DNA of 64,000 nucleotides from Pseudonocardia acidicola (GTDB lineage Bacteria; Actinomycetota; Actinomycetes; Mycobacteriales; Pseudonocardiaceae): positions 1-64,000 of the forward strand of contig NZ_JAAXLA010000004.1 of NCBI RefSeq assembly GCF_012911935.1, written 5' to 3'. Shown here piece by piece: positions 28,705 through 43,880 of the stretch. Every line of letters starts with the position of its first letter. Position 1 is the stretch's first letter. A program made the position numbers and the translations under genes. The notes beneath the pieces were generated by a model, which had not been told where the DNA came from, did not search any database, and saw only the letters and a list, made by a program, of their open reading frames with translations.

Positions 28705-28728
28705 CCGAAACCGCCGACTCGCGGGTCA
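28693..28728 (-). repeat. Dispersed repeat copy at the coxD-coxE junction
   Basis: On the minus strand it starts at the coxD stop, reads TGACCCGCGAGTCGGC, and is followed by a second GCGAGTCG that forms the coxE start region. Related copies lie at 39881-39935 and 45308-45346, both also beginning at a stop codon. Confidence 0.6.
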
Positions 28729-29622
28729 GGCATGGGGGATCAGGGTGGCGAGGCCCGCTGCGCGGGCGGTGGCCGCGTCCTCGTCGTACTTGAGCACCGC
28801 ACCCAGCGTGCGCTCGGCGGCAGCGACGTCGAGGTCCGCCACACCGAGCACGTGCAGCGCGGTCGTCCAGCTGATCGCCTCCGCGACCCCGGGCGGTTTC
28901 AGCAGGTCCAAGGCCCGGAACCGCTGCACCGCCGGGGCGACCCGGCTCGCGAGCCAGCCCGCCGCCTCCGGTACCCGTCGGCGGATGATCTCCTCCACTC
29001 GCCGCGGGTCCGGGTACCCGATCCAGTGGTAGAGGCAGCGCCGCTTCAGCGCGTCGTGCAGGTCGCGGGTGCGGTTGGAGGTGAGCACCGCGACCGGTGG
29101 CACGATCGCGCGCCGCGTGCCCAGCTCCGGAATGGTCACCGCCGACTCGGCGAGCATCTCGAACAGGAACGCCTCGAACTCGTCGTCGGCGCGGTCGATC
29201 TCGTCGATGAGCAGCACCGCGGGCCGCGGCCCCGGATGGCTGATCGCGGCCAGCAGCGGCCGCGCCAGCAGATAGTCCTCGGTGAACAGGTCGGCGTCGC
29301 GGAGCTGCTCCCCGCGGCTCTCCGCCAGCCGGATCGACAGCAGCTGGCGCGGGTAGTTCCACTCGTAGAGCGCCTCCCCCGCGGTCAGCCCCTCATAACA
29401 CTGCAGCCGCAGCAACGTGGTGTCGAGCGCCTCGGCGAGCGCCGTCGCCGCGCGGGTCTTGCCGACCCCGGGCTCGCCCTCGAGCAGCAGCGGCTGGCCG
29501 ATGCGCATGGCCAGGAACAGGGCGGTGGCCAGCGCGTCGTCGGCCAGGTACCCGACGTCGTCCAGCGCGGCACGCAGGGCGTCCACGTCGGGAACGGCGG
29601 GCAGATCGGGCACCCGGGTCAC
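28726..29622 (-). CDS. coxD: MoxR-family AAA+ ATPase CoxD, CO dehydrogenase set 1
   Basis: A 298-residue MoxR-type AAA+ chaperone required for assembling the sulfur- and copper-loaded molybdenum site of CO dehydrogenase. Walker A GEPGVGKT is at about 49-56, Walker B VLLIDEIDRADDEFE near 125-139, sensor 1 in VLTSNRTRDL and an arginine finger region in LKRRCLYHWIGYPDP. GTG 29622 overlaps the XdhC-YHS stop by 4 bp. A paralogue (42969-43880) is alike throughout, so each CO dehydrogenase may have its own maturation pair, or the pairs may be shared. Confidence 0.9.
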   Translation of the reverse strand: MTRVPDLPAVPDVDALRAALDDVGYLADDALATALFLAMRIGQPLLLEGEPGVGKTRAATALAEALDTTLLRLQCYEGLTAGEALYEWNYPRQLLSIRLAESRGEQLRDADLFTEDYLLARPLLAAISHPGPRPAVLLIDEIDRADDEFEAFLFEMLAESAVTIPELGTRRAIVPPVAVLTSNRTRDLHDALKRRCLYHWIGYPDPRRVEEIIRRRVPEAAGWLASRVAPAVQRFRALDLLKPPGVAEAISWTTALHVLGVADLDVAAAERTLGAVLKYDEDAATARAAGLATLIPHA

Positions 29623-30605
29623 CCCGTGAACCGTGCCGGGTCGTCGAGGAACGCCTGCCGGCAACCGGTGCCGCAGAACCAGTAGCCCTGCCCGCCGTGC
29701 CGGGCCGACACGCCGGCGGGCGTCAGCGCGACCTCCATCCCGCACACCGGGTCGATCGCGATCTGCAACGGCGCGGGCTTCGCCGGCGGCGGCTCGTCAG
29801 GGACCGGGACCTCGAGCGCCCGCTCGGCAGGCGGCTCGGTGCGCAGCGTGTCCGGCACCGTGACGCTGCTGCGGGGCCGGCGGGCCACGATGTCGGCGAA
29901 CACCGACAGCGCGATCTCCGGGGCCGTCCGGGCCCCGATGTCCAGCCCGGCCGGGGCGTGGACCCGGTCGAGCTGCTCGGCGGGCACGCCGAGCGCGGCG
30001 AGCTCCTCGCGCACCCCGGCCGCCCGTCTGCGGCTGGCCACCAGCGCGATGTAGGGCACCTCCGCGCGCAACGCCGCGCGCAGCACCGCGGCCTCGTCGC
30101 GCCCGTGCGAGGCGACGACGACGGCGGCGGTGTCCGCCGCGACGGGAACGCTCGGGTCGGCCCCCGCCCGGACGTCGTAGTCCAGCGCGGTGCCGACCCG
30201 GACCAGGGCCCGGGCCACCGGGGCCTCGCCGAACACCGAGATCAGCGTGGGCGGGACCATCGCCTCCAGGAAGATCTCCAGGGTGCCGCCGGACAGGCAC
30301 GGGTTGCCGACCGTGCGCACCCCCTCCACCGGGGCGTCGTCGCCACCGGCGCTCGGGGTGATCCGCAACAGCCCGGACTCACCGGCCGCCAGCAACCGCA
30401 GCCCCTCCAGCCGCACGGTCGACTCCGCGCACACCCCGCCGACGAAGCCGTCGATGGTGCCGTCGGGCAGCACGAGCGCACAGTCCCCCGGCTTCGCACT
30501 GGTCGGGCGTTCGGCACGGACCACCGTCGCGAGGACGAACGGCGTCCGGCCGGCCCGCAGGTCGTCGACCCGCGCCAGCAGCTCGCCGCGGCTCACGGTG
30601 ATCAC
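29619..30605 (-). CDS. XdhC/CoxF-family chaperone fused to a YHS metal-binding domain
   Basis: A 328-residue protein. The XdhC part (about 1-235) has TSAKPGDCALVLPDGT and GFVGGVCAE near the start and a Rossmann half with LISVFGEAPVARAL. XdhC proteins bind and sulfurate molybdenum cofactor for the large subunit. After a proline-rich linker (about 245-283), a C-terminal YHS domain begins at DPVCGMEV and contains YWFCGTGCRQAF. YHS/TRASH domains often bind copper or other soft metals, so this fusion could help deliver the copper of the CO dehydrogenase cluster. That role is a hypothesis. It overlaps coxL and coxD by 4 bp each. Confidence 0.85.
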   Translation of the reverse strand: MITVSRGELLARVDDLRAGRTPFVLATVVRAERPTSAKPGDCALVLPDGTIDGFVGGVCAESTVRLEGLRLLAAGESGLLRITPSAGGDDAPVEGVRTVGNPCLSGGTLEIFLEAMVPPTLISVFGEAPVARALVRVGTALDYDVRAGADPSVPVAADTAAVVVASHGRDEAAVLRAALRAEVPYIALVASRRRAAGVREELAALGVPAEQLDRVHAPAGLDIGARTAPEIALSVFADIVARRPRSSVTVPDTLRTEPPAERALEVPVPDEPPPAKPAPLQIAIDPVCGMEVALTPAGVSARHGGQGYWFCGTGCRQAFLDDPARFTG

Positions 30606-33007
30606 CGGATCGCCAGGTCGGGACGGATCGGGCGGCCCTGCACGGCCCGCCAGACGTGCGCCGGGGTCAGCGGCATGTCCGCGTGCCGGACCCCGATCGC
30701 GTCGAGCACGGCGTTGACCACGGCGGCGGGTGACCCGACGGTGGCCGACTCACCGACCCCCTTGGCGCCGATCGGATGGTGCGGTGACGGTGTCACGGTC
30801 TCTCCCAGTTCCCAGGACGGGCATTCCATCGACGTCGGAAGGAGGTAGTCCATGAACGAGGCACCGAGATGGTTCCCGTCGTCGTCGAAGGCCATCAGCT
30901 CCATCAACGCCATCCCGATCCCGTCGGCCAGCCCCCCGTGCACCTGGCCCTCGACGATCATCGGGTTGATCCGGACCCCGCAGTCGTCCACCGCGACGAA
31001 CCGGCGGACCTTCACCTGCCCGGTGCCCGGGTCGACGTCCACCACGCAGATGTAGGCGCCGAACGGATAGGTCAGGTTGGGCGGGTTGTAGACGCAGCTC
31101 GCGTCGAGATGGCCCTCCACGCCGTCGGGCAGCTCCAGGTCGGAGTGTGCGGCCAGCGCGATCTGCGCCATCGTCGCCCCGGCGGCCGGGTCGCCGGCGA
31201 CCTGCCAGCGCCCCTTGTGCCACTCCAGGTCGTCCGCAGACACCTCGAGCATCGCCGCGGCCACGATCCGGGCGCGCTCGCGGACCTTGCGGGCCACCAT
31301 GACGGCGGCCGCCCCGGACACCGGGGTCGAGCGGGAGCCGTAGGTGCCCAGCCCGAACGGGGTCTGGTCGGTGTCGCCCTGCACCAGTTCGACGTCGTCG
31401 GGTGAGACGCCCAGCTCTTCGGCGACGATCTGGGCGAACGTGGTCTCGTGGCCCTGCCCCTGGCTCATGCACGACACCCGCAGCACCGCGGTGCCGGTGG
31501 GGTGCACCCGCAGTTCCGCGCCGTCGGCCATGCCCAGGCCCATGATGTCCATCGTCCGGCGTGGGCCGGCGCCCACGGCCTCGGTGAAGAAACTGATCCC
31601 GACACCCAGCAGCTCACCGCGGCCGGTCTCGGCGTAGGCCGCGCGCCTGCGGGCCTGCTCGCGGCGCAGCTCGTCGTAGCCGGCCATCTCCAGGGCGAGC
31701 GCCAGGGTGCGCGGATAGTCACCGGAGTCGTACTCCCATCCCGTCGCGCAGGCGTACGGGAACTGTTCCGGGCGCAGCAGGTTGCGCATCCGGACCTCGG
31801 CGGGGTCGAGCCCGAGGTCGTGGCAGAGCACGTCGACCAGGCGCTCGACCAGATAGGACGCCTCGGTGATGCGGAACGAGCACGCATAGGCCACGCCGCC
31901 GGGCGCCTTGTTGGTGTAGACGCCGGTGACCCGGCAGTGCGCGGCCGCCACGTCGTAGGAGCCGGTGAAGATGGTGAAGAACCCGGCCGGGAACTTCGAC
32001 GGCTGCGCGGTCCCGTTGAACGCGCCGTGGTCGGCCAGCACCCGGACCCGCAACCCGAGGATCCGCCCGTCGCGCGTCGCCGCGATCTCCCCGTGCATGT
32101 GGTAGTCGCGGGCGAACGACGTGCTCATCAGGTTCTCCGAGCGGTCCTCGGTCCACTTCACCGGAGACCCGGTCAGCACCGAACCCACCACCGCGCACAG
32201 GTAGCCGGGGTACATGCCGACCTTGTTGCCGAATCCGCCCCCGATGTCCGGGGCCACGATCCGGATCTTGTGTTCCGGGATGCCGGCGATGCGCGCGTAG
32301 AGCATCCGGTGGGTGTGCGGGGCCTGGGTGGTGGCGTGCACGGTGAGCTTGCCCGAGATCCGGTCGGCGTCGGCGACGATGCCGCAGGTCTCCAGCGGGG
32401 CCGGGTGCACCCGCGGGTAGAGCAGGTCGCACCCGGAGACGTGCTCGGCCGCGGCGAACACGGCATCGGTGGCCGCGGCGTCGCCGGCCTCCCAGTCGAA
32501 GACGTGGTTGTCGGTGCGCCCGTCGATCTCGTCGCGGATCAGCGGCGCGTCCGGGTCCAGGGCGCGGCGGGCGTCGATCACCGGCGGCAACGGTTCGTAC
32601 TCGACCTCGATCAGGCTCAGCGCGTCGCGCGCGGCGTAGCGGTCCTCGGCGACGACGAAGGCGACCTCCTGCCCCTGGTAGCGCACCTTGTCCGTGGCCA
32701 GCACCGCCGCGACGTCGTGCGACAGCGTCGGCATCCAGGCCAGCCCGCGCCCGGCGAGGGTCTCGCCGGTGATCACCGCCCGGACCTTGGGGTGCGACTC
32801 GGCGGCGCTGGTGTCGACCGCGGTGATCCGGGCGTGCGCGTACGGGCTGCGCAGGATCGCGCCGTGCAGCATCCCGGGCAGCCGCAGGTCGTCGACGTAG
32901 CGGCCGCGGCCGCGGACGAACCGCGCGTCCTCCTTGCGCAGCATCCGCCCGTGCCCCATCGGCGTCGGGACGTCGCTGAACCCGCTGAACTCCCCGAGCG
33001 CGCTCAC
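30602..33007 (-). CDS. coxL: CO dehydrogenase large subunit CoxL, form I type, set 1
   Basis: Molybdopterin cytosine dinucleotide-binding subunit that oxidises CO to CO2; 801 residues. The active-site loop reads AYACSFR (about 373-379). This fits the form I signature AYXCSFR, whose Cys (here about 376) binds copper of the Mo-S-Cu centre; form II would read AYRGAGR. QGQGHETT (about 516-523) and the general-base Glu in KGVGES (about 753) are intact. GTG 33007 overlaps coxS. Alanine at the X position differs from the Arg of the best-known enzymes and from set 2, so kinetic behaviour could differ. Confidence 0.9.
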   Translation of the reverse strand: MSALGEFSGFSDVPTPMGHGRMLRKEDARFVRGRGRYVDDLRLPGMLHGAILRSPYAHARITAVDTSAAESHPKVRAVITGETLAGRGLAWMPTLSHDVAAVLATDKVRYQGQEVAFVVAEDRYAARDALSLIEVEYEPLPPVIDARRALDPDAPLIRDEIDGRTDNHVFDWEAGDAAATDAVFAAAEHVSGCDLLYPRVHPAPLETCGIVADADRISGKLTVHATTQAPHTHRMLYARIAGIPEHKIRIVAPDIGGGFGNKVGMYPGYLCAVVGSVLTGSPVKWTEDRSENLMSTSFARDYHMHGEIAATRDGRILGLRVRVLADHGAFNGTAQPSKFPAGFFTIFTGSYDVAAAHCRVTGVYTNKAPGGVAYACSFRITEASYLVERLVDVLCHDLGLDPAEVRMRNLLRPEQFPYACATGWEYDSGDYPRTLALALEMAGYDELRREQARRRAAYAETGRGELLGVGISFFTEAVGAGPRRTMDIMGLGMADGAELRVHPTGTAVLRVSCMSQGQGHETTFAQIVAEELGVSPDDVELVQGDTDQTPFGLGTYGSRSTPVSGAAAVMVARKVRERARIVAAAMLEVSADDLEWHKGRWQVAGDPAAGATMAQIALAAHSDLELPDGVEGHLDASCVYNPPNLTYPFGAYICVVDVDPGTGQVKVRRFVAVDDCGVRINPMIVEGQVHGGLADGIGMALMELMAFDDDGNHLGASFMDYLLPTSMECPSWELGETVTPSPHHPIGAKGVGESATVGSPAAVVNAVLDAIGVRHADMPLTPAHVWRAVQGRPIRPDLAIR

Positions 33008-33483
33008 GCGGCACCGTCCCGGGCGTTCTCGGCCGCCGCGGCGTGCCGGATCGAGCGCACGATGTTCTCGTAGCCGGTGCACCGGCAGGTCTGGCCCGCG
33101 ATCGCCTCACGGATCTCGGCCTCGGTCGGGTCCGGGTTGTGGTCGAGCAGCCAGCGGGCGGTCATCAGCATCCCCGGTGTGCAGAAGCCGCACTGCAGGC
33201 CGTGGCATCGGATGAACGACAGCTGCACCTGGTCCAGGCCGAAGGGACCCTCGAGGCCCTCCACGGTGCGCACCCGCCGGCCGCCGGCCATCACCGCCAG
33301 CACCGTGCACGACTTCACCGGCACGTCGTCCATCCACACCGTGCACGCGCCGCAGTTGGACGTGTCGCAGCCCCAGTGCGTCCCGGTCAAGCCGAGTTCG
33401 TCGCGCAGCAGATGCACCAGCAGCAACCGGGGCTCGACCTCGCGGACGTGCTCGACTCCGTTGACCCACACCGTGATCTGCAC
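33004..33483 (-). CDS. coxS: CO dehydrogenase small [2Fe-2S] subunit CoxS, set 1
   Basis: A 159-residue iron-sulfur subunit passing electrons from the Mo-Cu site to FAD. The N-terminal plant-type [2Fe-2S] cluster uses Cys about 39, 44, 47 and 59 (GCDTSNCGACTV). The C-terminal cluster uses Cys about 98, 101, 133 and 135 (QCGFCTPG and CRCTGY). GTG 33483 lies 4 bp after the coxM stop. The M-S-L gene order matches known cox operons. Confidence 0.93.
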   Translation of the reverse strand: MQITVWVNGVEHVREVEPRLLLVHLLRDELGLTGTHWGCDTSNCGACTVWMDDVPVKSCTVLAVMAGGRRVRTVEGLEGPFGLDQVQLSFIRCHGLQCGFCTPGMLMTARWLLDHNPDPTEAEIREAIAGQTCRCTGYENIVRSIRHAAAAENARDGAA

Positions 33484-33487
33484 GCGA

Positions 33488-34378
33488 TCAGGCCTCCCCG
33501 CCCCGGGCCCGGGCCGCGGCCCGGCGCAGCGCCCGGACGGTCAGCTCGTCCGCGAGGTGGCGCTTGTAGTCGACCGGCCCACGCTGGTCGGCCACCGGGC
33601 TGCAGTGCTCGGCGGCGATCCGCCCGGCCTCGGCGAAGGTCTCCTCCGTGGCCGGGCGGCCACGCAGGTACTCCTCGGCCTGCACCGCGGTGAAGTCCGG
33701 GGCCCCGACGGCGGTGAGACCGAGACCGACCTCGGCGACGGTGCCGTCAGGGGCGAGCCACAGCGCGGCAGCGGCCGCGGCGACGGCCCAGTCCCCGGCC
33801 CGGCGGTCGACCTTGAGGTAGGTGCTGCCCCCGCCTGGGCGCAGCGGGACGCGCAGCTCGGCCAGGATCTCCGCCGGGCCGACCACGGTCTGGTAGGGCC
33901 CGGTGAAGAACTCGCGCACCGGCACGGTGCGTTCGCCGTCGAGGCCGCGGATCACCGCGGTGGCCCGCAGCGCGGTGAACGCCCCGGACAGGTCCTCGGA
34001 CGGGTCGGCCTGGCAGACCGAGCCGCCGACGGTGCCGCGGTTGCGCACGAGCGGATCGGCGATCATGCGCTCGGCGTCGTGCAGCATCGGGTAGTGCTCG
34101 CCCGCGACCGCGGAGCCGAGCAGGTCGGCATGCCGGGTCATCGCGCCGATCCGCAGCTCAGCGCCCTCGTCACCGACCTCGACACGGATCTCGCCGAGCT
34201 CGTCCAGGTCGTTGATGTCGATGAGCATCTCCGGCTGGGCCAGCCGCAGTTTCATCATCGGGATCAGGCTGTGCCCACCGGCCACGATGCGCGCCTCGGG
34301 GCCGTACCGGGCCAGCAGCGAGATGGCGTGATCGACGCTCGTCGCCCGCTGGTACTCGAAGTGGGCGGGCACCTGCAT
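33488..34378 (-). CDS. coxM: CO dehydrogenase medium FAD subunit CoxM, set 1
   Basis: A 296-residue FAD-binding subunit. The two flavin motifs are AGGHSLIPMMKLR near residue 37 and RGTVGGSVCQADPSEDL around 115. ATG 34378 follows GGGAG by 7 bases; a longer in-frame start at 34462 has no such site. It is first in the leftward operon coxM-S-L-xdhC/YHS-D-E, which has stop/start overlaps or tiny gaps throughout. The start lies 106 bp from the LysR-type box at 34484-34497. Confidence 0.92.
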   Translation of the reverse strand: MQVPAHFEYQRATSVDHAISLLARYGPEARIVAGGHSLIPMMKLRLAQPEMLIDINDLDELGEIRVEVGDEGAELRIGAMTRHADLLGSAVAGEHYPMLHDAERMIADPLVRNRGTVGGSVCQADPSEDLSGAFTALRATAVIRGLDGERTVPVREFFTGPYQTVVGPAEILAELRVPLRPGGGSTYLKVDRRAGDWAVAAAAAALWLAPDGTVAEVGLGLTAVGAPDFTAVQAEEYLRGRPATEETFAEAGRIAAEHCSPVADQRGPVDYKRHLADELTVRALRRAAARARGGEA

Positions 34379-34949: not shown

Positions 34950-35819
34950 ATGTACCCGTCTCGTTTTCGCTACGAGGCTCCCCACTCGCTCGACGAGGCG
35001 TGCGCACTGCTGGCCGAGTACGGCGACGAGGCCAAGGTCCTCGCCGGCGGGCAGAGCCTCATCCCGTTGCTGAAGCTGCGCTTCGCGGCACCGGGAGTGC
35101 TCGTCGACATCAACGACATCCCGGAGCTCGCCTACCACCACGAGGACGCCGACGGCACGCTGCGGGTCGGCGCGCTGTGCCGGCACGCCGACCTGGAGCG
35201 GTCGACGCTGCTGGCCGGCAGGTACCCCACCATGGCCGCGGCGGCGCCGCTGGTCGCCGACCCGATCGTGCGCACCCGCGGCACCCTGGTCGGGTCGCTG
35301 TGCCACGCCGATCCGCAGGGCGACTGGGCCTCCGTGATGCTGGCCCTGAACGGCGAGATCGTCGCCCAGGGCCCACGTGGCCGGCGCACGATCCCGGCCG
35401 CGGACTTCGTCGTCGGGCCGTTCCAGAACGCGCTCGCGCCCGATGAGATCGCGGTCGAGGCCCGCGTCCCGGCGGCTCGCGGCGCGGTGTCGGGCACCTA
35501 CCTCAAGCTCGAGCGCCGGGTCGGTGACTTCGCGACGGCGGGCGTGGCGGTGGCGCTCGAGACCGCGAACGGCCAGGTGATCCGAGCCGGCATCGCGCTG
35601 ACCGGGGTGGGCGCCAACAACATCAAGGCCGTCGAGGCCGAAGCGGCCCTCACCGGCAATGCCCTCGACCCCGACGTGATCGCCCGCGCGGCCCGGCTCG
35701 CCGCCGGGGCGGCCCGGCCCAAGCCCGACCACCGCGGCAGCGCCGAGTACAAGCGCCACGTCATCGAGACCTTCGTCAGCCGCGCACTCGGCGGCCCCCG
35801 GACCGCGCTGGCGGCCTGA
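34950..35819 (+). CDS. coxM: CO dehydrogenase medium FAD subunit CoxM, set 2
   Basis: A 289-residue FAD-binding subunit close in length to the Oligotropha protein. Flavin motifs are AGGQSLIPLLKLR near residue 32 and RGTLVGSLCHADPQGDW near 110. In the second motif the family T-V/I-G-G-S reads TLVGS, a small departure from set 1. ATG 34950 follows GAAGAGGAG. It starts 1 bp after the unknown 90-residue gene and is followed directly by coxS. Confidence 0.92.
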   Translation: MYPSRFRYEAPHSLDEACALLAEYGDEAKVLAGGQSLIPLLKLRFAAPGVLVDINDIPELAYHHEDADGTLRVGALCRHADLERSTLLAGRYPTMAAAAPLVADPIVRTRGTLVGSLCHADPQGDWASVMLALNGEIVAQGPRGRRTIPAADFVVGPFQNALAPDEIAVEARVPAARGAVSGTYLKLERRVGDFATAGVAVALETANGQVIRAGIALTGVGANNIKAVEAEAALTGNALDPDVIARAARLAAGAARPKPDHRGSAEYKRHVIETFVSRALGGPRTALAA

Positions 35820-35850
35820 CATGTCCACTGTGAACTCCAAGGAGGGCGGC

Positions 35851-36366
35851 GTGGACGAGCGCCGGATCACCGTCACGGTCAATGGCGAGCCCAGGACCGC
35901 CGAGATCGAGCCCCGGTTGCTGCTGGCCCACCTGCTGCGGCAGGGCCTCGGGCTGACCGGCACGCACATCGGGTGCGACACCACCAACTGCGGCGCCTGC
36001 ACCGTGCTCTACGACGGCCGCCCGGTGAAGTCGTGCACGATGCTCGCGGTCCAGGCCGACGGGCACGAGGTCACCACCGTCGAGGGGCTGGGTACGCCCA
36101 GCGAACTCGACCCGGTGCAGGAGGGCTTCACCAGCGAGCACGCCCTGCAGTGCGGCTTCTGCACCCCCGGGATGATGCTCGCCGCCAAGGCCCTGATCAC
36201 CGAGAACCCGGACCCCACGGAGGAGGACGTCCGCTGGGGGCTGTCCGGGAACCTCTGCCGGTGCACCGGCTACCAGAACATCGTCAAGGCAGTGCTGTGG
36301 GCCGCGCAGAAGCAGCGGGCCGAGGCGGCAGCCGCCGGCACCAGCGACAACGCCGTCGCGGTCTGA
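35851..36366 (+). CDS. coxS: CO dehydrogenase small [2Fe-2S] subunit CoxS, set 2
   Basis: A 171-residue iron-sulfur subunit. The N-terminal cluster uses Cys about 42, 47, 50 and 62; the C-terminal cluster uses Cys about 101, 104, 136 and 138 (QCGFCTPG and CRCTGY). GTG 35851 is preferred because AAGGAGG lies just upstream. An in-frame ATG at 35821, right after the coxM stop, would add ten non-conserved residues encoded by the ribosome site itself. The C-terminus has an Ala-rich extension of about 15 residues. Confidence 0.9.
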   Translation: MDERRITVTVNGEPRTAEIEPRLLLAHLLRQGLGLTGTHIGCDTTNCGACTVLYDGRPVKSCTMLAVQADGHEVTTVEGLGTPSELDPVQEGFTSEHALQCGFCTPGMMLAAKALITENPDPTEEDVRWGLSGNLCRCTGYQNIVKAVLWAAQKQRAEAAAAGTSDNAVAV

Positions 36367-36377
36367 GGAGGCAGGGA

Positions 36378-38762
36378 ATGTCACAGGCACTGGACGAAGT
36401 GAAGATCGGCGGTCTCGGCGCGAGCCGGCAGCGGGTGGAGGACGCCCGCTTCATCCGCGGCCGGGGCAACTACGTCGACGACATCGTGCTGCCCGGCATG
36501 CTGCACATGGAGATCCTGCGCAGCCCGCTCGCGCACGCCCGGATCACGTCGATCGACACGTCGGCGGCGTGGGCGATCCCCGGGGTGCGACTGGTACTCA
36601 CCGGCGAGATGGCCGCGCAGCGCAACCTGGCGTGGATGCCGACGCTGTCCTACGACACGCAGGCGGTGCTGGCCACCGACAAGGTGCGCTTCCAGGGCCA
36701 GGAGGTGGCGTGTGTCGTCGCCGACGACCCCTACATCGCCCGCGACGGCGTCGAGGCGATCGTCGTCGAGTACGAGCCGCTGCCGCCGATCGTCAACCCG
36801 ATGCAGTCGCTCGAACCCGGGGCGCCGCTGATCCGGGACGACAAGGAGGGGCAGACGGACAACGTCTGCTACCGCTGGGAGGTCGGCGACAAGGAGGCCA
36901 CCGATCGGGCCTTCGCCGGGGCCGACCAGATCTCCGAGCTGAAGCTGCACTACCCGCGCAGCCACCCGTCGCCGATCGAGAACTGCGGTTCGGTCGCCGA
37001 CTACAACTCCGCGACGGGCAAGCTCACGGTCTACATGACCACCCAGGCCCCGCACATCATCCGGGCCGCGGTGTCCCTGGTGGCGGAACTGCCCGAGCAC
37101 ATGATCCGGATCATCTCCCCGGACATCGGTGGCGGCTTCGGCAACAAGGTCCCCGTCTACCCCGGCTACGTGTGCTCGATCCTGTGCTCGATCCTCACCG
37201 GCAAACCGGTGAAGTGGATCGAGGACAAGACCGGCAACCTGGTCTCCACCGGGTTCGGCCGCGACATGTACCTGACCGGTGAGATGGCGCTGCGCTCCGA
37301 CGGCAAGATCCTCGCCATCCGGTTCCACGCCGACACCGACCAGGGTGCGTTCTTCTCCGACGCCCAGCCCAGCAAGTTCAAGATCGGGCTCGTGCACTCC
37401 GCGTTCGCCTGCTACGACATCCCGTACGGCCACATCACCGCGCAGGGTGCGTACACCAACAAGGCGCCCGGTGGGGTCGCCTACCGGTGCTCGTTCCGGG
37501 TCACCGAGGCGATGTTCTTCCAGGAACGCATGATGCACGCGGCGGCCGCCGATCTGGGCATGGACCAGGCCGAGTTCCGGCGCATCAACCTGCGCTCCGA
37601 CGACTCGTTCCCGGCCCGCACGCCCTTCGGGTTCCTGGTCGACTCCGGGCAGTACGGCACGTGCCTGCAGATCGGGCTGGACGCGATCGGCTACGAGGAC
37701 TTCACGCGCGAGCAGGCCGAGGCCCGCAAGCGCGGCAGGCTGCTGGGCATCGGGATCTCGACGATGACCGAGCCGCTCGGGGCCGGCAACAGCCGCGAGT
37801 ACGACATCCTCGGCATCAAGATGTTCGACTCCGCCGAGCTGCGGGTGCACCCCACCGGCAAGGCGCTCCTGCGCACCGGCGCGAAGACCCAGGGCCAGGG
37901 GCACGAGACGACCTGGGCGCAGATCGTCAGCCACGAGCTCGGCATCCCGGCCTCCGACGTCCTCGTCGAAGAGGGCGACACCGACACCGCGCCGTTCGGG
38001 ATGGGGACCTACGCCTCGCGCAGCACGCCGGTCGCGGGGGCGGCGGTCTCGATGGTGTCCCGCAAGGTCCGCGCGAAGGCCCGCAAGCTCGCCGCGCACC
38101 TGCTGGAGGTGTCCGAGGAGGACGTCGAGTGGGAGCTCGGCCGGTTCTACGTGCGAGGGGCGGAGAGCCGGGGCGTGACGATCCAGGAGTGCGCGATGGC
38201 CGCGTACACCAACATGCCCGACGGCATGGAGCCCGGCCTGGAGAACAACGCCTACTACGACCCGCCCAACCTGACCTGGCCGTTCGCCTGCTACATCGCG
38301 ACGGTCGAGGTCGACCCGGAGACCGGCGTCTGGGACGTGCTGCGGCTGGTCGCGGTCGACGACTGCGGGGTGCGGATCAACCCCATGATCGTCGAGGGGC
38401 AGATCATGGGCGGGCTCACCGAGGCCTACGCGATGTCGAACATGCAGTTCCAGACCTATGACGCCGAGGGCAACATCGTCGGCGGGAACTACATGGACTA
38501 CCTGCTGCCCACGGCCTGGGAGACCCCGGGCTTCGAGTTGCACGAGGTCGTCACCCCGTGCCCGCACCACCCCATCGGTGCCAAGGGCGTCGGTGAGTGC
38601 GCGGCGGTCGGCGGGCCGGCCGCGTTCGTCAACGCCGTCATGAACGCCATCGAGCACAGCGGTGTGCGCAACATCGACATGCCGCTGCTGCCCGACCGGG
38701 TCTGGGACGCCATCCGGACCGGCAAGGACATCTCCGGCGCGCCGCCGTTGCGGAACGAGTGA
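36378..38762 (+). CDS. coxL: CO dehydrogenase large subunit CoxL, form I type, set 2
   Basis: A 794-residue Mo-Cu catalytic subunit. The active-site loop is AYRCSFR (about 368-374), identical to the classic form I signature, with the copper-binding Cys at about 371. QGQGHETTWAQ and the base Glu of KGVGEC (about 740) are present. ATG 36378 has GAGGAGGCAGG upstream. It is followed by coxG and the run of small membrane proteins. Set 2 looks like the more typical CO dehydrogenase of the two, and alone has coxG. Substrate identity is inferred from the loop. Confidence 0.93.
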   Translation: MSQALDEVKIGGLGASRQRVEDARFIRGRGNYVDDIVLPGMLHMEILRSPLAHARITSIDTSAAWAIPGVRLVLTGEMAAQRNLAWMPTLSYDTQAVLATDKVRFQGQEVACVVADDPYIARDGVEAIVVEYEPLPPIVNPMQSLEPGAPLIRDDKEGQTDNVCYRWEVGDKEATDRAFAGADQISELKLHYPRSHPSPIENCGSVADYNSATGKLTVYMTTQAPHIIRAAVSLVAELPEHMIRIISPDIGGGFGNKVPVYPGYVCSILCSILTGKPVKWIEDKTGNLVSTGFGRDMYLTGEMALRSDGKILAIRFHADTDQGAFFSDAQPSKFKIGLVHSAFACYDIPYGHITAQGAYTNKAPGGVAYRCSFRVTEAMFFQERMMHAAAADLGMDQAEFRRINLRSDDSFPARTPFGFLVDSGQYGTCLQIGLDAIGYEDFTREQAEARKRGRLLGIGISTMTEPLGAGNSREYDILGIKMFDSAELRVHPTGKALLRTGAKTQGQGHETTWAQIVSHELGIPASDVLVEEGDTDTAPFGMGTYASRSTPVAGAAVSMVSRKVRAKARKLAAHLLEVSEEDVEWELGRFYVRGAESRGVTIQECAMAAYTNMPDGMEPGLENNAYYDPPNLTWPFACYIATVEVDPETGVWDVLRLVAVDDCGVRINPMIVEGQIMGGLTEAYAMSNMQFQTYDAEGNIVGGNYMDYLLPTAWETPGFELHEVVTPCPHHPIGAKGVGECAAVGGPAAFVNAVMNAIEHSGVRNIDMPLLPDRVWDAIRTGKDISGAPPLRNE

Positions 38763-38777
38763 GCGGGGGAATCACTG

Positions 38778-39359
38778 ATGCTGATCGAGAACGAGTTCCG
38801 GGTCACCGCACCGGTGGACGAGGTGTGGGACTACATGCAGGACCTGCCGGGCCTCGCGCCCTGCCTGCCCGGTGCCGAGCTGACCGACGACCTCGGTGAC
38901 GGCACCTACCAGGGCAAGGTCATCACCCGGCTCGGGCCGGTGAAGCTGGGATTCACCGGCACGGCGAGGATGGTCGAGGCCGACGAGGCCGCGCGGCGGA
39001 TCGCGATCCACGCGGTCGGCTCGGAGGACAAGGGCAAGGGCACCGCGGACATGACGGTGACCGCCACCCTGGTGCCCGCGAGCGGCGGGGCGACCACCGT
39101 CAAGGTCACCCAGGACCTGCAGGTCTCCGGCGCGGCCGCGCAGTACGGCCGCGGGATGATCTCCGACGTCAGCAGCGTGCTGATGAAGAGCTTCGCGGAG
39201 TGCATCTCCTACAACATCGACGCCGGTCGCGGCGGCGGTACCGCCACCATGACCCGGACCGCGAAACCGGCCAGCGGTCTGGGCATCGGCCTGTCGGCCG
39301 CGGTGATGGCGCTCAAGCGGGTCATCCGCCGGTTCTTCGGCCCGAGCACCCGCCCCTGA
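38778..39359 (+). CDS. coxG: CoxG-type SRPBCC membrane-docking protein
   Basis: A 193-residue protein. The N-terminal SRPBCC (START-like) lipid-binding fold spans about 1-150 (MLIENEFRVTAPVDEVWDYMQDLPGLAPCLPGAEL is the family opening). A C-terminal hydrophobic/basic segment (about 168-187, LGIGLSAAVMALKRVIRRFF) probably anchors it. CoxG recruits CO dehydrogenase to the membrane and more recent work links it to quinone extraction. ATG 38778 has GGGGGAA upstream. No second coxG occurs with set 1, so both enzymes may share it. Confidence 0.9.
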   Translation: MLIENEFRVTAPVDEVWDYMQDLPGLAPCLPGAELTDDLGDGTYQGKVITRLGPVKLGFTGTARMVEADEAARRIAIHAVGSEDKGKGTADMTVTATLVPASGGATTVKVTQDLQVSGAAAQYGRGMISDVSSVLMKSFAECISYNIDAGRGGGTATMTRTAKPASGLGIGLSAAVMALKRVIRRFFGPSTRP

Positions 39360-39372
39360 GAGAGGAGCAGTC

Positions 39373-39627
39373 ATGACGCTGTGGTGGATCGGCAACGCGA
39401 TCCTGCTGTTCGTGGTGTTCCCGGTCGTGGTCGCGCTGCTCAACCGGGTGTTGTCCGCGGTCGAGCGGATCCGCTGGGCCGCCGACGACATCCTGGCCGG
39501 CGGCGGGCGCCTCGCCGGGCAACTGGAACCGGTGCCCGGCCTGCTGGCCACGACCGACGCGACCGTGCACCAGGTCGCGGTCGGCGCGACCCGCTACGCG
39601 GGCAGCGTCGCGAAGTTGCTGCCGTGA
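39373..39627 (+). CDS. Small single-helix membrane protein 1 of the cox set 2 operon
   Basis: An 84-residue protein not recognised. One hydrophobic helix spans about residues 4-24 (WWIGNAILLFVVFPVVVALL). It is followed by a polar, probably helical part with ADDILAGGGRLAGQLEPVPGLL. No cysteine or known motif. ATG 39373 has AGAGGAG upstream and starts 13 bp after coxG. It is the first of five similar-looking but unequal small proteins in a row, so it probably belongs to a membrane assembly connected with CO oxidation. Confidence 0.75.
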   Translation: MTLWWIGNAILLFVVFPVVVALLNRVLSAVERIRWAADDILAGGGRLAGQLEPVPGLLATTDATVHQVAVGATRYAGSVAKLLP

Positions 39628-39655
39628 TGACCACCGATCGAGGAAGGAACCAGCC

Positions 39656-39883
39656 ATGCCCGCAGCCGCCTGGGCGACGCTGATCATCTCAGGCCTGATC
39701 ATCGCCATCACCGGCGTGGGCCTGCTCCGGGTGATCCTGCATCTGCGCCACGTCAGCACGACCCTCGCCACCCTCACCGGCGGGGTGCAGGCCATCGCCG
39801 CCTCGACGTCCACCGTGCCGGTCGTGCTGCCGTCGGTGAACGCCAACCTCAAGCCGGTCCGCGACTTCTGCGAGTCGGTATGA
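39656..39883 (+). CDS. Small single-helix membrane protein 2 of the cox set 2 operon
   Basis: A 75-residue protein. One membrane helix lies at about residues 6-27 (ATLIISGLIIAITGVGLLRVIL). A soluble tail with regularly spaced hydrophobics (LRHVSTTLATLTGGVQAIAAST) suggests an amphipathic helix. It has a single Cys near the C-terminus (RDFCESV). ATG 39656 follows GAGGAAGGAACC. The stop codon is also the first base triplet of a dispersed repeat. No known family was recognised. Confidence 0.72.
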   Translation: MPAAAWATLIISGLIIAITGVGLLRVILHLRHVSTTLATLTGGVQAIAASTSTVPVVLPSVNANLKPVRDFCESV

Positions 39884-39935
39884 CCCCGCGAGTCGGCACT
39901 TTCGGGAGCGCGAGTCGGCACTTTCCGGCGCACGA
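39881..39935 (+). repeat. Dispersed repeat copy inside the cox set 2 operon
   Basis: Two near-tandem units of CGCGAGTCGGCACTTT (39887-39902 and 39909-39924), then a partial CGAGTCG. It starts at the stop codon of small membrane protein 2 and fills most of the 97-bp gap to the next gene. It splits an otherwise tight operon. Related copies are at 28693-28728 and 45308-45346. Confidence 0.65.
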
Positions 39936-39980
39936 GTCGTCGGATTCGGGCGGCCGGGTCGCCGTAGCGAGGAGGACGTC

Positions 39981-40250
39981 ATGACGCTCGCGCAAGCCGC
40001 CGAGCCGGACATGTTCGGGTGGTACCTGGGTTTCGGGATCGGGATCGTCGTGGTCCTCGTCGTCGTCGCCCTGGTCGTCCCGATCCTGGTCCTGGCCCAC
40101 AGGATCGGTGAGCAGGCGCAGGTCATCAACTCAGGCCTGCAGCAGTCCGAGCGCAACACCCGGCCACTGGCCGCGCTGCGCCAGACCATCGACCACGCCG
40201 AGGTCATCACCGCCGGGCTGCGCCGCGGCCGCGAGAGGCTGGGAGGGTAA
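39981..40250 (+). CDS. Small single-helix membrane protein 3 of the cox set 2 operon
   Basis: An 89-residue protein. A short polar lead (MTLAQAAEPDMFG) precedes a strong hydrophobic helix (about 14-40, rich in Val/Ile/Leu). After it comes a soluble helix with HRIGEQAQVINSGLQQSERNTRPLAAL. No cysteine. ATG 39981 follows GAGGAGG, right after the repeat. It is 2 bp from the next gene. Function unknown; by position and shape it groups with its four neighbours. Confidence 0.74.
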   Translation: MTLAQAAEPDMFGWYLGFGIGIVVVLVVVALVVPILVLAHRIGEQAQVINSGLQQSERNTRPLAALRQTIDHAEVITAGLRRGRERLGG

Positions 40251-40252
40251 CC

Positions 40253-40555
40253 ATGAGCGATCAGGAGATCACCGCCTGGTGGATCGCCATCATCGCCGGG
40301 TTCGTCGTGGTGCTCGCCGTGGCGGCACTGCTGAGCCTGCTGGTGTGGTTCGTGAAGATCATCGACAGGCGCGTCGCGGAGATCCGGGACACGTTGTCGG
40401 CCATCACGCGGAACACCGCGTCCACGGCGCTCATCCCACAGACCGGTGACGCCGTCGACGCGGTGCTGGCCGAGGGCCTGCAACACCATCTGTTCCTCGG
40501 TCGGGTGCTGCCGAGCATCCCGACCCCGGCCACCACGAACGGAGGGGCGGCATGA
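40253..40555 (+). CDS. Small single-helix membrane protein 4 of the cox set 2 operon
   Basis: A 100-residue protein. One hydrophobic helix at about 10-34 (AIIAGFVVVLAVAALLSLLVWFV) is followed by KIIDRRVAEIRDTLSAITRNT, whose heptad-like spacing suggests a short coiled coil. The C-terminal tail has GLQHHLFLGRVLPSIP and ends polar. ATG 40253 follows GGGAGGG. It overlaps the next gene by 4 bp. Topology resembles DUF948-type proteins, but no family could be assigned. Confidence 0.75.
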   Translation: MSDQEITAWWIAIIAGFVVVLAVAALLSLLVWFVKIIDRRVAEIRDTLSAITRNTASTALIPQTGDAVDAVLAEGLQHHLFLGRVLPSIPTPATTNGGAA

Positions 40556-40905
40556 CCACCCTGGTCGTCCTCACCGTCGTCGTCATCGCCGCGCTCATCG
40601 CCGGACTCGCGTTCTACCTGTTCTGGGTCGGATCGCTGCTCGGCCGGATCGCGACGAACCTCGAGGCGTGCGAGGACAGCGTCCGGCAGATCAACGCCGA
40701 CGCCGCGCTGATCGGACCGGGCGTCGAGCACATCAACCGCTCCGGCGGCACGGTGGCCGGCGCGCTGCCGCTGCTCTACGGGTTCGCCGAGAAGATCGTC
40801 GTCAAGGCCTCGCCGAACGTCGAGCGGCCGAAGGTGGCCGTCCCCGCCTCCGGGCGGCGGCGGTCACGTCTGCACGAGGCCGTCGGGTTCGCTCCGGTGG
40901 ACTGA
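40552..40905 (+). CDS. Small single-helix membrane protein 5 of the cox set 2 operon
   Basis: A 117-residue protein, the longest of the five. A membrane helix at about 3-28 precedes LLGRIATNLEACEDSVRQINADA, a probable amphipathic helix, then GPLVEH-like turns and a basic tail (SGRRRSRLHEAV). It has one Cys about residue 41. ATG 40552 has GGAGGGG upstream. A strong hairpin follows the stop, marking the operon end. The soluble part could contact CoxG or the dehydrogenase; that is inference. Confidence 0.75.
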   Translation: MTTLVVLTVVVIAALIAGLAFYLFWVGSLLGRIATNLEACEDSVRQINADAALIGPGVEHINRSGGTVAGALPLLYGFAEKIVVKASPNVERPKVAVPASGRRRSRLHEAVGFAPVD

Positions 40906-40918
40906 CGGCCATCCGGAC

Positions 40919-40951
40919 CGGCGCCGCACCCCTGCCCCGGGTGCGGCGCCG
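40919..40951. terminator. Strong terminator between convergent cox operons
   Basis: A perfect 13-bp stem (40919-40931 with 40939-40951, core GGCGCCGCACCC) around a 7-base loop. It begins 14 bp after the stop of small membrane protein 5 and lies before the convergent gene ending at 41074. It probably ends cox set 2 transcription. Confidence 0.75.
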
Positions 40952-41073
40952 TGTCGCGTCCGGTGTCCACGAGCGGGCGGCCCAGGGCCGCCGAACGCTG
41001 CGCTACGGCAGGCGATCACCGCACCGGAGCGCCACATCGCAGCGTCCGGCATCCGGGCCAGCAGCGGAGGCCC

Positions 41074-41514
41074 TCAGCGCGGGCGCTTCTCCGGCGGACG
41101 CGGGGGCGGGAGCGGGGCGGTGTTGGGGGCGTCGGAGTACTCCCCGATCCACTCGGCGCGCCACGCCGTGTCGTACTTCTGCTCGTTGCAGTGCGGGTCG
41201 TAGACGGAGATCAGCTCGTTCGTGACCATCTCCCGGTGCCCGCGCCCGCCGCCGGGGATCTGCAGGGTCGCGATGTGCACCTTCCACTTCGACCCCGCGC
41301 GCTGCACCCAGCAGTGCGCCCGGCGGTGCTTGAACGGAAAGCCCTCCGCGGACAGGTCGTCGGCGTGCCCGACGTAGATGACCGCGTACTTCTCCCGCTC
41401 CGGGTCCGGCTTGTACAAGATCGCGTAGACGCCCGGCTCGGCCGGTGGGGTCCACCCGCCCAGCAGCCGGGGGCCGGAGAACGCGTACCCGGCGAGCGAG
41501 CCGAGCCGGATCAC
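41074..41514 (-). CDS. GIY-YIG-like protein of unknown role in the coxDE operon
   Basis: A 146-residue protein. The N-terminal half resembles the GIY-YIG nuclease core, with PGVYAILYK at about residue 27 and VIYVGHADDLS at about 45, but the catalytic Arg and Glu cannot be placed with confidence. The C-terminal half has MVTNELISVYDPHCNEQKY and ends in a proline-rich tail. GTG 41514 overlaps the upstream 94-residue gene by 4 bp. It is the last gene of the leftward operon with coxD and coxE, an unexpected companion for CO dehydrogenase. The nuclease activity is unproven. Confidence 0.68.
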   Translation of the reverse strand: MIRLGSLAGYAFSGPRLLGGWTPPAEPGVYAILYKPDPEREKYAVIYVGHADDLSAEGFPFKHRRAHCWVQRAGSKWKVHIATLQIPGGGRGHREMVTNELISVYDPHCNEQKYDTAWRAEWIGEYSDAPNTAPLPPPRPPEKRPR

Positions 41515-41812: not shown

Positions 41813-42949
41813 CTAGCCCAGCTCGGGGAGCAGTGCGGCCAGCTCTTCCAGGCTGCCCAGGTCGTGACCGGACAGCAACACGTCGATGTGCGGGTCGGCG
41901 ACCATCATGCCGACGGTCTGCGGGCGGTAGTCGGGGTTGTTTCCCTTGTGCGGGTTCATCCACACAATGCGGTGGCACAGTCGCGACAGTCGCTCCATGG
42001 CGGTGGCCAGGACGTCGGGGTCGCCGCGGTCGAGGCCGTCGGAGCAGATCACGACGACACCGCCGCGGGCCATCCCCCGCCGCCCCCAGTGCCGGACGAA
42101 CGCGTCGAGCGACTCCCCGATCCGGGTGCCGCCCTCCCAGTCGACGACGAGCCGGGCGGCCCGCTCGAGCGCGTCGTCGGGCTTGCGTGTCTGCAGCGAC
42201 TTCGTCAGATGCGTGAGCCGGGTGCCGAAACAGAACACCTCGACCGTGAACGACCCCGACGACGCGCGCTTGGCCGAGTACGCGAACTGCAGCAGCGCGC
42301 GTGAGTAGTCGGCCATCGACCCGGAGATGTCCAGGATGAGGATCAGCGGGCGCAGCCGGAGCCGGCGGCGGCGCCAGTGCAGGTCGATCATCTCACCGTG
42401 CATCCGCAGCGACCGGCGGATCGTGGCGCGCAGGTCGGGCCGGCGACCCCGGCGCGCCGCGCGGGTGCGGCGGGTCCGCCGCCGCGGCGGGGCCAGCCGG
42501 ATCCGGGCCATGATCCGGCGCACCGCCTCGAGTTCGGAGTCGGTGCAGGCGGAGAACTCCTTGGCCTTCAACGTCTCGGCGTTCGACGCCATCAGCCCGA
42601 GGACGGTCTCCTCGTCGGGCTCCTCGGCCCCCGGGTCGGCGGCGACCTCCAGCACCGTCTCCGCCTCGGACTCCGCCCGGGCCTTGATCTTCACCAGTTC
42701 CTGCACCGGGTTGCCGGCGTCGAGGAAGAACTCCCGGAACACCCGGTCGTAGGTCACGATGTCGTCGCGGCGGCTGACCAGCGAGACCCGCCCGCCCCAG
42801 TACAGGTCCACCAGGTCGGTCGGGTCCAGCGGGGTCATCGCGGCGCAGAAGGTGAGGATGTCGCCCGAGCCGACGGACACGCCCTCGGCACGCAGGGCCC
42901 GGCCGAAGTCGACGAGCACCCCGGTCAGCCCGGCCGGGGCCGCCGTCAC
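41813..42949 (-). CDS. coxE: VWA-domain protein CoxE, second copy
   Basis: A 378-residue von Willebrand factor A protein. The MIDAS motif DISGSM lies in the middle (LILILDISGSMADYSR), with EGGTRIGESLDAF and VVVICSDGLDRGD as partner loops. Upstream is an acidic insert (about 110-140) and an Arg-rich stretch ([17 protein letters not shown]), also present in the set 1 copy. GTG 42949 is the only start in frame after the coxD stop, 19 bp away. It works with CoxD in active-site maturation. Identity with 27499-28704 is clear across the VWA half. Confidence 0.87.
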   Translation of the reverse strand: MTAAPAGLTGVLVDFGRALRAEGVSVGSGDILTFCAAMTPLDPTDLVDLYWGGRVSLVSRRDDIVTYDRVFREFFLDAGNPVQELVKIKARAESEAETVLEVAADPGAEEPDEETVLGLMASNAETLKAKEFSACTDSELEAVRRIMARIRLAPPRRRTRRTRAARRGRRPDLRATIRRSLRMHGEMIDLHWRRRRLRLRPLILILDISGSMADYSRALLQFAYSAKRASSGSFTVEVFCFGTRLTHLTKSLQTRKPDDALERAARLVVDWEGGTRIGESLDAFVRHWGRRGMARGGVVVICSDGLDRGDPDVLATAMERLSRLCHRIVWMNPHKGNNPDYRPQTVGMMVADPHIDVLLSGHDLGSLEELAALLPELG

Positions 42950-42968
42950 AGCGCAGTCCCCGTCATCG

Positions 42969-43880
42969 CTACCGCGAGGTGATCTCGTCGAGCCGGCTGC
43001 GCACCAGTTCGGCGTCGTCGTGGTCCTTGACGACGGAGCCCAGGGTGAGGTCGGCGGCCTCGGCGTCGAGCTCGGTCTCACCGAGGAAGTCCAGCGTGCG
43101 GGCCCAGTCGATGGTCTCCGCCACGCCGGGCGGCTTGGCCAGGTCCAGCTCACGCAGCCGGTTGACCGCGGCGACGACCTTGGCCGCCAGCTCCGCGGAC
43201 ACGCTCGGCTCGCGCACCGTGACGATCTCGACCTCGCGCTGCGCCGCCGGGTACCCGAGCCAGTGGTAGAGGCAGCGGCGCTTGAGCGCGTCGTGCAGCT
43301 CGCGGGTGCGGTTGGAGGTGAGCAGCACCAGCGGCGGGCGCTCGGCCCTGATCGTTCCCACCTCGGGGATGCTGATCTGGAAGTCCGAGAGCACCTCCAG
43401 CAGGAACGCCTCGAACTCGTCGTCGGCGCGGTCGACCTCGTCGATGAGCAGCACCGCGCCGTCGCCTGCCTTGATCGCCTCCAGCAGCGGGCGTTCGAGG
43501 AGGAACCGGGGCCCGAACAGCTTGTCGACGGCCTCCTCGCCCTCGACACCGCGCTCGGACAGCGCCCGGATGTGCAGCAGCTGGCGGGCGTAGTCCCACT
43601 CGTACATGGCCTGGTTGGTGTCGATGCCCTCGTAGCACTGCAGCCGGATCAGCTTGCGGCCCAGGACCGCGGCGAGCGTCTTGGCCAGCTCGGTCTTGCC
43701 GACGCCCACCTCGCCCTCCAGCAGCATCGGGCGATTCAGCGACAGTGCGACATGGACCGCGGTGGCCAGTCCGCGGTCGGCCAGGTACCCGCCCGCGCGC
43801 AGCGTCTCGGTCAGCTCGGCGACCGAGCCCGGTTGGTTCACGAAAGGGATCTCCTCGAGGTGCGGGCGGGTCGGCCCCAT
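42969..43880 (-). CDS. coxD: MoxR-family AAA+ ATPase CoxD, second copy
   Basis: A 303-residue AAA+ ATPase. Walker A GEVGVGKT is at about 55-62, Walker B VLLIDEVDRADDEFE near residue 140, and sensor LLTSNRTREL follows. It closely parallels 28726-29622 (shared RLQCYEG, DDEFEAFL, RRCLYHW blocks). It lies 3 bp after the 113-residue hypothetical and upstream of coxE. Physical separation from set 2 coxMSL by a convergent layout means its expression depends on the control region at 44.3 kb. Confidence 0.9.
   Translation of the reverse strand: MGPTRPHLEEIPFVNQPGSVAELTETLRAGGYLADRGLATAVHVALSLNRPMLLEGEVGVGKTELAKTLAAVLGRKLIRLQCYEGIDTNQAMYEWDYARQLLHIRALSERGVEGEEAVDKLFGPRFLLERPLLEAIKAGDGAVLLIDEVDRADDEFEAFLLEVLSDFQISIPEVGTIRAERPPLVLLTSNRTRELHDALKRRCLYHWLGYPAAQREVEIVTVREPSVSAELAAKVVAAVNRLRELDLAKPPGVAETIDWARTLDFLGETELDAEAADLTLGSVVKDHDDAELVRSRLDEITSR

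Follow-up and report, generated by a model that had tools for sequence, protein, structure and literature searches.

Five small, predicted single-helix membrane proteins accompany carbon monoxide dehydrogenase and, in related form, [NiFe]-hydrogenases in Actinomycetota

Introduction

In Mycobacterium smegmatis, HucM is the scaffold of the group 2a [NiFe]-hydrogenase Huc, and the helical tube it forms, according to the accessible text of PMC10017518, reaches 94 A from the membrane and is proposed as the route by which menaquinone gets to Huc. For carbon monoxide (CO) dehydrogenase, CoxG has been described as a quinone-binding membrane partner (Kropp et al. 2025, as cited in the available part of PMC13240472). 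Small transmembrane (TM) proteins are known from further [NiFe]-hydrogenases: the available sections of PMC9561532 report five short predicted TM proteins, HylTM1-5, between the small-subunit (S) and large-subunit (L) genes of group 1l, and two small single-TM proteins of 82-92 aa in the group 1m cluster. Here we describe five consecutive small genes, sm1-sm5 (together, the module), that follow coxG in a CO dehydrogenase operon of Pseudonocardia acidicola (GCF_012911935.1). They lie in positions 1-64,000 of contig NZ_JAAXLA010000004.1, the 64,000-nt stretch that we call the window.

As far as the accessible text of PMC9561532 goes, the window set resembles HylTM1-5 in consisting of five separate short proteins with one TM segment each, and the sets that we found between hydrogenase S and L genes are homologous to it; these S-five-L loci were likened to group 1l by anatomy only, against that text. 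The window genes differ in following coxG in the order 1-2-3-4-5, as against 3-4-5-1-2, and in bearing CO-specific motifs in sm2, sm4 and sm5. The likeness to HucM, judged from the same excerpts of PMC10017518, would lie in a proposed helical stalk that joins a soluble dehydrogenase to the membrane for menaquinone reduction. However, HucM is one tetrameric protein that is peripheral through its C-terminal end, whereas the window encodes five different proteins, all of them (5/5) with an N-terminal TM segment in place of such a C-terminal contact. CoxG belongs to the same operon and probably serves the same purpose, the connection of CO dehydrogenase with the quinone pool, but it matches known Pfam families and the five small proteins match none. 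What is new here is the recruitment of a HylTM-like set by CO dehydrogenase, the five-protein hydrogenase set being already published. A literature search through titles and abstracts among the matches listed, with subscription papers and preprints outside its scope, returned no link between small membrane or HylTM-like proteins and CO dehydrogenase.

We lean towards an exchangeable membrane anchor or stalk, a hetero-oligomer of the five proteins at which soluble trace-gas dehydrogenases would dock to reduce quinone. This reading is the simplest because the sets lack conserved Cys, go with two unrelated enzymes and have tips tailored to each. A sequence-only reading of the window had earlier suggested a membrane platform linking CO dehydrogenase and CoxG to the quinone pool, and a candidate undescribed part of CO respiration. 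The membrane link gains support from a conserved unit that is tied to CO dehydrogenase and whose anatomy fits a membrane role. The claim of an undescribed CO respiration part fails, as homologues of all five accompany [NiFe]-hydrogenases and HylTM1-5 are in print (PMC9561532, accessible text). A CO-specific part was rejected on the ground that hydrogenase loci carry the same set; in our view this linkage generalises the idea of membrane coupling and does not refute it, whereas it does refute CO-specificity.

Results

Five small genes close a CO dehydrogenase operon

The five genes lie in a row on the forward strand: sm1 (39373..39627, 84 aa), sm2 (39656..39883, 75 aa), sm3 (39981..40250, 89 aa), sm4 (40253..40555, 100 aa) and sm5 (40552..40905, 117 aa), the reading frames of sm4 and sm5 sharing 4 bases. 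The sequence-only reading had given these positions and lengths exactly, and codon log-odds mark all five open reading frames (ORFs) as coding. A purine-rich ribosome site can be read ahead of every ATG, as it had also stated. Against four relatives, the ratio of nonsynonymous to synonymous substitution rates (dN/dS) is 0.03-0.51 for the sm genes, next to 0.34-0.55 for coxG and 0.14-0.26 for coxL1; sm1-sm5 are under purifying selection.

From the ORFs, the forward-strand gene order is coxM1-coxS1-coxL1-coxG-sm1-sm2-sm3-sm4-sm5, with sm1-sm5 as the operon end. coxM1 (34950..35819) encodes the FAD subunit of the module-associated CO dehydrogenase, coxS1 (35821..36366) the 2Fe-2S subunit (Pfam Fer2, Fer2_2) and coxL1 (36378..38762) the catalytic molybdenum-copper subunit (Pfam Ald_Xan_dh_C, MoCoBD_1, MoCoBD_2). 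CoxL1 bears AYRCSFR, which we take to be the form I CO dehydrogenase motif (AYXCSFR). coxG (38778..39359) matches Pfam COXG (E 7.6e-15) and also Polyketide_cyc2, and its product ends in a short amphipathic helix without a TM-grade segment. The CoxL motif, the Mo-binding domains, CoxS and CoxG together mark the enzyme as form I. A 13-bp perfect GC-rich hairpin (40919..40951, +) closes the operon and faces convergent genes, and the fold of 40906-40975 reaches -44 kcal/mol (z -3.25). The strong terminator proposed earlier is present as a hairpin and lacks the T-run; our terminator scan missed it because of that lack.

Anatomy of the small proteins

Each protein has one strong hydrophobic segment starting within residues 3-20 (Kyte-Doolittle 19-residue mean 2.38-3.49), and the best later window reaches just 0.54-1.30, so that a single N-terminal TM helix is predicted in 5/5, as proposed before; in sm1 it spans about residues 9-27 and helices follow. 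In every family, Lys and Arg are commoner after than before the TM segment in 90-100% of members, a computed charge pattern that would leave the N-termini outside and put the tails in the cytoplasm. The tails are amphipathic (hydrophobic moment 0.49-0.55 vs 0.40-0.46 when shuffled). Single-chain models suggest a TM helix continuing into a long cytoplasmic helix: sm5 was modelled as one continuous 85-residue helix (residues 2-86) and then a flexible tail (mean predicted local distance difference test score, pLDDT, 82.5); the sm1 model has two helices, 2-51 and 54-82 (mean pLDDT 78.2).

Long helices with amphipathic tails, the single 85-residue helix of the sm5 model and the precedent of the HucM tube (PMC10017518, in its accessible text) would also suit a quinone conduit, in which the helices form a lipophilic tube that brings menaquinone to the enzyme in the manner of HucM. 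This is a stronger form of the anchor, and the odds of the two overlap. We regard the tube as possible but doubtful: HucM is peripheral at its C-terminal end, as opposed to the N-terminal TM anchors here, CoxG already has a proposed quinone role, and the models are of single chains only.

Searches of sm1-sm5 against Pfam and NCBIfam gave no match at the curated cut-offs, which agrees with the earlier remark that none was recognised, and ten hydrogenase-side versions had no Pfam match above cut-off; DUF948 was a recurring match, always sub-threshold. Cross-matches within the set join sm1 with sm3 and sm4, and sm2 with sm5, and these groups suggest duplication. No second copies of sm1, sm4 or sm5 were found in the same genome outside the operon, a match at E 0.0135 being taken as chance. 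Carriage of the module by plasmids was rejected, as sm1 had no match up to E 1e-3 among 72,556 plasmid records.

Conservation within the genus

We searched 100 genomes of relatives, 60 of them of the genus (own included). Strong sm5 matches (E <= 2.6e-38) occurred in 17 genomes at 18 loci, and the same 17 genomes held a CoxL at least 84% identical, in 18 rows on the same contigs as sm5. A close sm5 was therefore present in 17/17 genus genomes with such a CoxL and in 0/43 others (Fisher 2.6e-15, for genomes that are related); the 43 lacked both. Eight of the 43 hold only the 57-59% CoxL type, that of CoxL2 in the window, and close sm5 is found in 0/8. Two others (G004 and G017; G numbers denote genomes, L numbers loci) gave weaker sm5 matches and have no such CoxL; their set is distant, of the hydrogenase side, and surrounds a [NiFe]-hydrogenase operon. 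A further weak match came from another family (G081), where five such genes adjoin Calvin-cycle genes. All five sm genes stand in the same order 3' of coxG in 17/17 fetched non-window genus loci, and coxM1 lies upstream of coxS1/coxL1 in 17/17 same-genus loci fetched.

Related sets in hydrogenase loci

For a blind comparison, CO-side genes were labelled 1-5 by their order after coxG (56 loci) and hydrogenase-side genes a-e by order, without use of similarity. The reciprocal best profile pairs were 1-d, 2-e, 3-a, 4-b and 5-c (5/5), a single rotation 3-4-5-1-2. By this correspondence sm1, sm2 and sm4 are homologues of the fourth, fifth and second hydrogenase genes, and the best matches of sm3 and sm5 are the first and the third, with e nearly tied for sm5. 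Against loci of the L049 kind, diagonal scores were 91-147 and the next best at most 61, in a matrix that was not blind, those families having been labelled via profiles grown from the CO set. Taken together, the profile comparisons show that the CO and hydrogenase sets are homologous; four of the proteins pair one to one, and the partner of sm5 is less certain.

Five small genes stand between the S and L genes in L153, L155, L156, L157 and L160; L158 and L159 have the same run, with one subunit gene beyond the contig end. The window module adjoins coxG and is not placed between hydrogenase S and L genes. Among fetched loci, 18/24 large-subunit genes of at least 50% identity have the module nearby, and four of the six misses are on short or cut contigs. 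Shorter large-subunit genes (39-41%) occur in L148 and L208, module loci that also hold a hydrogenase of at least 50%. The L049-type large subunit has 5aa5, HofG of Ralstonia eutropha, as its closest PDB match (E 4.7e-139). L049 and L051 combine adjacent S and L genes with NifU, TPR, a BirA-type domain (barely at the Pfam cut-off), DUF1059 and small TM genes (Pfam on L049). By gene content, they fit the group 1m cluster in the accessible part of PMC9561532, where 5aa5 is the best model named, and they hold homologues of the five. Two small proteins are described there, against five in L049, of 87, 79, 87, 111 and 88 aa, some on one side of the S/L genes and some on the other.

In six CO dehydrogenase loci (L043, L044, L060, L065, L073, L074) the run of small genes includes a DUF1059-like gene; DUF1059 is also listed in the group 1m cluster (PMC9561532, same excerpts). 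The P. acidicola genome has a group 1h-like [NiFe]-hydrogenase of its own (contig C11:36727-38448, L221), about 40% identical to L049 (38% by gene call) and without a module gene.

Enzyme-specific motifs

Three motifs separate the two sides, in counts that include near-duplicate genomes. PAxGxRRSR, in the flexible tail of sm5, was found in 54/58 CO dehydrogenase members vs 0/25 hydrogenase members; HHLFLGR, at the C-terminus of sm4, in 57/60 vs 0/27; and RVxxHL, directly after the TM segment of sm2, in 56/60 vs 1/30. In sm4 and sm5 the motif is C-terminal or nearly so, in a part of the protein that we place in the cytoplasm because of the charge pattern, and both motifs are missing from 2 other-clade CO and 3 unlinked members. 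The CO dehydrogenase of M. smegmatis is mainly cytoplasmic, according to the available text of PMC6794299.

Association with CoxL type

A tree was built from 51 form I-like CoxL sequences (49 of the sample, 2 of the window) and five outgroup rows. In one clade, which includes CoxL1 (Shimodaira-Hasegawa-like approximate likelihood ratio test, SH-aLRT, 100), 9/9 rows have module genes within 12 kb, eight as complete sets and L181 as sm1 only. A separate clade (L150/L152/L200) has them in 3/3 rows: L150 and L152 hold four of the five genes, and L200 (a G195 contig), first scored empty, proved to have four genes about 8 kb from coxL, further along the contig. Among sample rows alone, the module is near 8/8 of the main clade vs 3/41 elsewhere (Fisher 3.7e-7, which is not a clean probability, as rows share ancestry). 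The window's CoxL2 was set by hand to 'none', though the neighbouring operon's module lies within 12 kb. The statement in the sequence-only reading that known cox clusters lack such genes suits 38 of the 49 sampled rows, where no module gene was seen nearby, and breaks down for the two clades with 9/9 and 3/3.

The 63 non-window CoxL rows include 14 outside the tree: four mycobacteria-like, four fragments, G302:C45, two rows each from G219 and G284, and G240 (51% GC), in which tblastn confirmed operon and module. CoxG-labelled genes had a TM-grade C-terminus in 0/62 cases in module loci and 4/17 in module-free loci, some of these 17 labels being poor calls. This is only a hint that the module may replace a CoxG TM anchor; most module-free CoxG are also without TM.

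Distribution across Actinomycetota

In a phylum sample of 396 Actinomycetota genomes, drawn evenly, profiles matched sm1 in 38 and sm4 in 39, with 35 common to both. Every genome with a CoxL of 71% identity or more has sm1 (12/12, own included), as do 18/19 with an L049-type hydrogenase (at least 50% identity), and 30/38 sm1 genomes hold one or the other. The rest comprise G116 and G305, with hydrogenase S genes beside sm3-5; G302 and G355, with the other CoxL clade; G487, with RuBisCO; G198 and G347, of family f59; and G468, probably a chance match.

Forty sm1 loci were fetched, covering 43/44 non-own rows, with the weak row G383:C9 left out. Automatic labels assigned 20 to hydrogenase (15 with an S or L gene, five with maturation or accessory genes only), eight to the CoxL clade/CoxG, two to the other CoxL clade and 10 to no partner. 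L128 was reassigned to CO dehydrogenase by tblastn, so that 11/40 stand beside CoxL or CoxG, and L135 shares a contig with the hydrogenase locus L148. The sequence-only reading had named a majority of homologues outside cox clusters as a finding that would refute its proposal, and this is partly what emerged: 11 of the 40 loci belong to CO dehydrogenase and 20 to hydrogenase. Eight unlinked loci remain (L140, L142, L141, L144, L145, L146, L149, L161), of which L140 adjoins RuBisCO and L161 is probably a chance match. In three further f59 loci (L223, L225, L226) sm3-4-5 lie beside a gene for about 1600 aa, with sm1-2 elsewhere; the f59 genomes G219 and G262 hold a 71-74% CoxL. A separate genome-contig scan gave 40 loci, all from Actinomycetota lineages (37 CO dehydrogenase, 3 hydrogenase; several repeat genus loci); it rests on one peptide pattern and is no proper test outside Actinomycetota.

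In some CO and H2 loci the module is accompanied by three longer proteins (about 180-230 aa, cc3-5). Those at L050:3199-5143 begin, by eye, with a TM-like stretch and contain repeats of the kind INxxAxx; others occur in L138, L139, L143, L146, L147, L148, L151 and L222. They may be a further component of the stalk. In L050 and L140 the module has RuBisCO genes as neighbours, and in L139 a prk-like gene is close by. Such neighbours, and the longer single-TM repeat proteins, would be expected of a scaffold that only brings dehydrogenase, terminal oxidase or carbon-fixation enzymes together in one patch of membrane. We consider this improbable, as just three of the mapped module loci have carbon-fixation neighbours and the tie to the two dehydrogenases is much closer.

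Other features of the window

Convergent with the module lie a vWA-type and a MoxR AAA-type gene (41813..43880, -), which by their family features we take to be coxE and coxD; they are placed alike in most module-bearing cox loci extending that far. Between them and the module is an uncharacterised gene pair (41074-41514 and 41511-41795, -; 146 and 94 aa), kept in same-genus relatives reaching so far and replaced by genes of similar size in other module-bearing cox loci. By eye the 146-aa protein is GIY-YIG-like (GVYAILY...YVGHADDL), with no Pfam family above cut-off. A second cox set (M2, S2, L2, xdhC-like, MoxR, vWA; 27499..34378, -) is divergent from the module operon, and its CoxL2 is form I-type and 57% identical to CoxL1. 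Between sm2 and sm3, positions 39888-39925 hold two copies of GCGAGTCGGCACTTTC, 22 bp apart. The exact 16-mer has 25 occurrences in the genome (reversed control: 0), several as pairs 22 bp apart; it is an interspersed repeat within the module operon.

Discussion

We propose that sm1-sm5 would come together in a hetero-oligomer. Its TM helices would form a bundle in the membrane, and its long helices on the cytoplasmic side a stalk holding the dehydrogenase there, CoxMSL in this operon and hydrogenase elsewhere. The tails of sm4 and sm5 may provide enzyme-specific contacts, and electrons from the docked enzyme would pass to menaquinone. In CO oxidation the quinone would still be carried by CoxG, with the module docking or supplying CoxG.

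A number of observations weigh against this anchor. Many form I CO dehydrogenases have no nearby module, some with CoxG adjoining; L202 and L209 carry an L049-type hydrogenase on long contigs with no module nearby; and group 1h-like loci (37-41%) have it in 0/9 distinct loci, that of the own genome included (nine loci fetched from 37 rows of 37-42% identity). The module is not needed for such CO/H2 chemistry in general. The sm1 model had no match when its fold was searched against the PDB. Near-invariant His residues in sm2 (directly after the TM segment) and sm4 could bind metal or heme; a redox-carrier role was thought unlikely despite them, the near-invariant columns of the CO sets containing zero Cys. 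The homology is also less clean than the first comparison suggests. When profiles were compared a second time without the six loci that have a DUF1059-like gene inside the run, with the shifted loci L045 and L058 still in (both were removed as well before conservation lines were drawn), 4/5 pairs stayed reciprocal and sm5 reached 42 with e as against 38 with c; the best match of gene c remained sm5. Post-TM parts alone supported 1-d and 2-e, and 4-b more weakly, and failed for 3-a (sm3) and 5-c (sm5). Reversing the tails lowered the paired scores from 58, 54, 54, 68 and 38 to 24, 18, 41, 44 and 29; part of the signal comes from the TM segment, because reversed tails still reach 41 (sm3-a) and 44 (sm4-b).

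To the same side of the balance belong coxD-like (MoxR) genes in 3/30 hydrogenase-side module loci (L138, L147, L154), by which part of the CO maturation kit may be common to hydrogenase loci. They would suit a membrane platform for assembly and maturation, at which the apo-enzyme is tethered during metal-centre insertion (by CoxD/E/F or Hyp) and no electrons are transferred. Module genes often adjoin coxE/coxD or hypC/D/E, and in L144 (f59) the sm1-sm2 pair lies beside coxE/coxD. Because of the coxD-like genes in the three hydrogenase loci and the sm2 His, we moved weight from the anchor to maturation. We nevertheless judge it rather unlikely: CO dehydrogenase and [NiFe]-hydrogenase differ in metal centre, the module is missing from related CO dehydrogenase loci that do have coxD/coxE genes, and in five loci it is flanked by S and L within the operon of the structural genes.

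Also counting against the anchor, one complete set (L142) stands alone, and in five f59 loci (L141, L144, L145, L146, L149) the set is split and partly away from cox genes. Along with the absence of a known domain, this is what one would expect of ordinary small hypothetical genes that are carried by linkage and have a role unrelated to CO or H2. Such hitchhiking strikes us as very improbable: the genes go with two unrelated enzymes, recur in two or more separate CoxL clades, are under purifying selection and encode enzyme-specific motifs.

The anchor or stalk remains the reading that we favour. As to its origin, we suggest only tentatively that two ancestral single-TM helices were duplicated into a five-part stalk, a plug-in quinone port that would have been recruited by at least CO dehydrogenase (twice) and [NiFe]-hydrogenase as an interchangeable means of passing electrons to menaquinone, with mainly the sm4 and sm5 tips re-tailored.

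How soluble enzymes that act on CO and H2 from the atmosphere pass their electrons into the respiratory chain has so far found partial answers in HucM and CoxG. The five-gene block, found with both enzyme types in Actinomycetota, offers a compact genetic target for a possible shared membrane port, and the module provides a function-linked marker for unnamed small genes in soil genomes. The shared set suggests a reusable part that ties CO- and H2-burning enzymes to the respiratory membrane.

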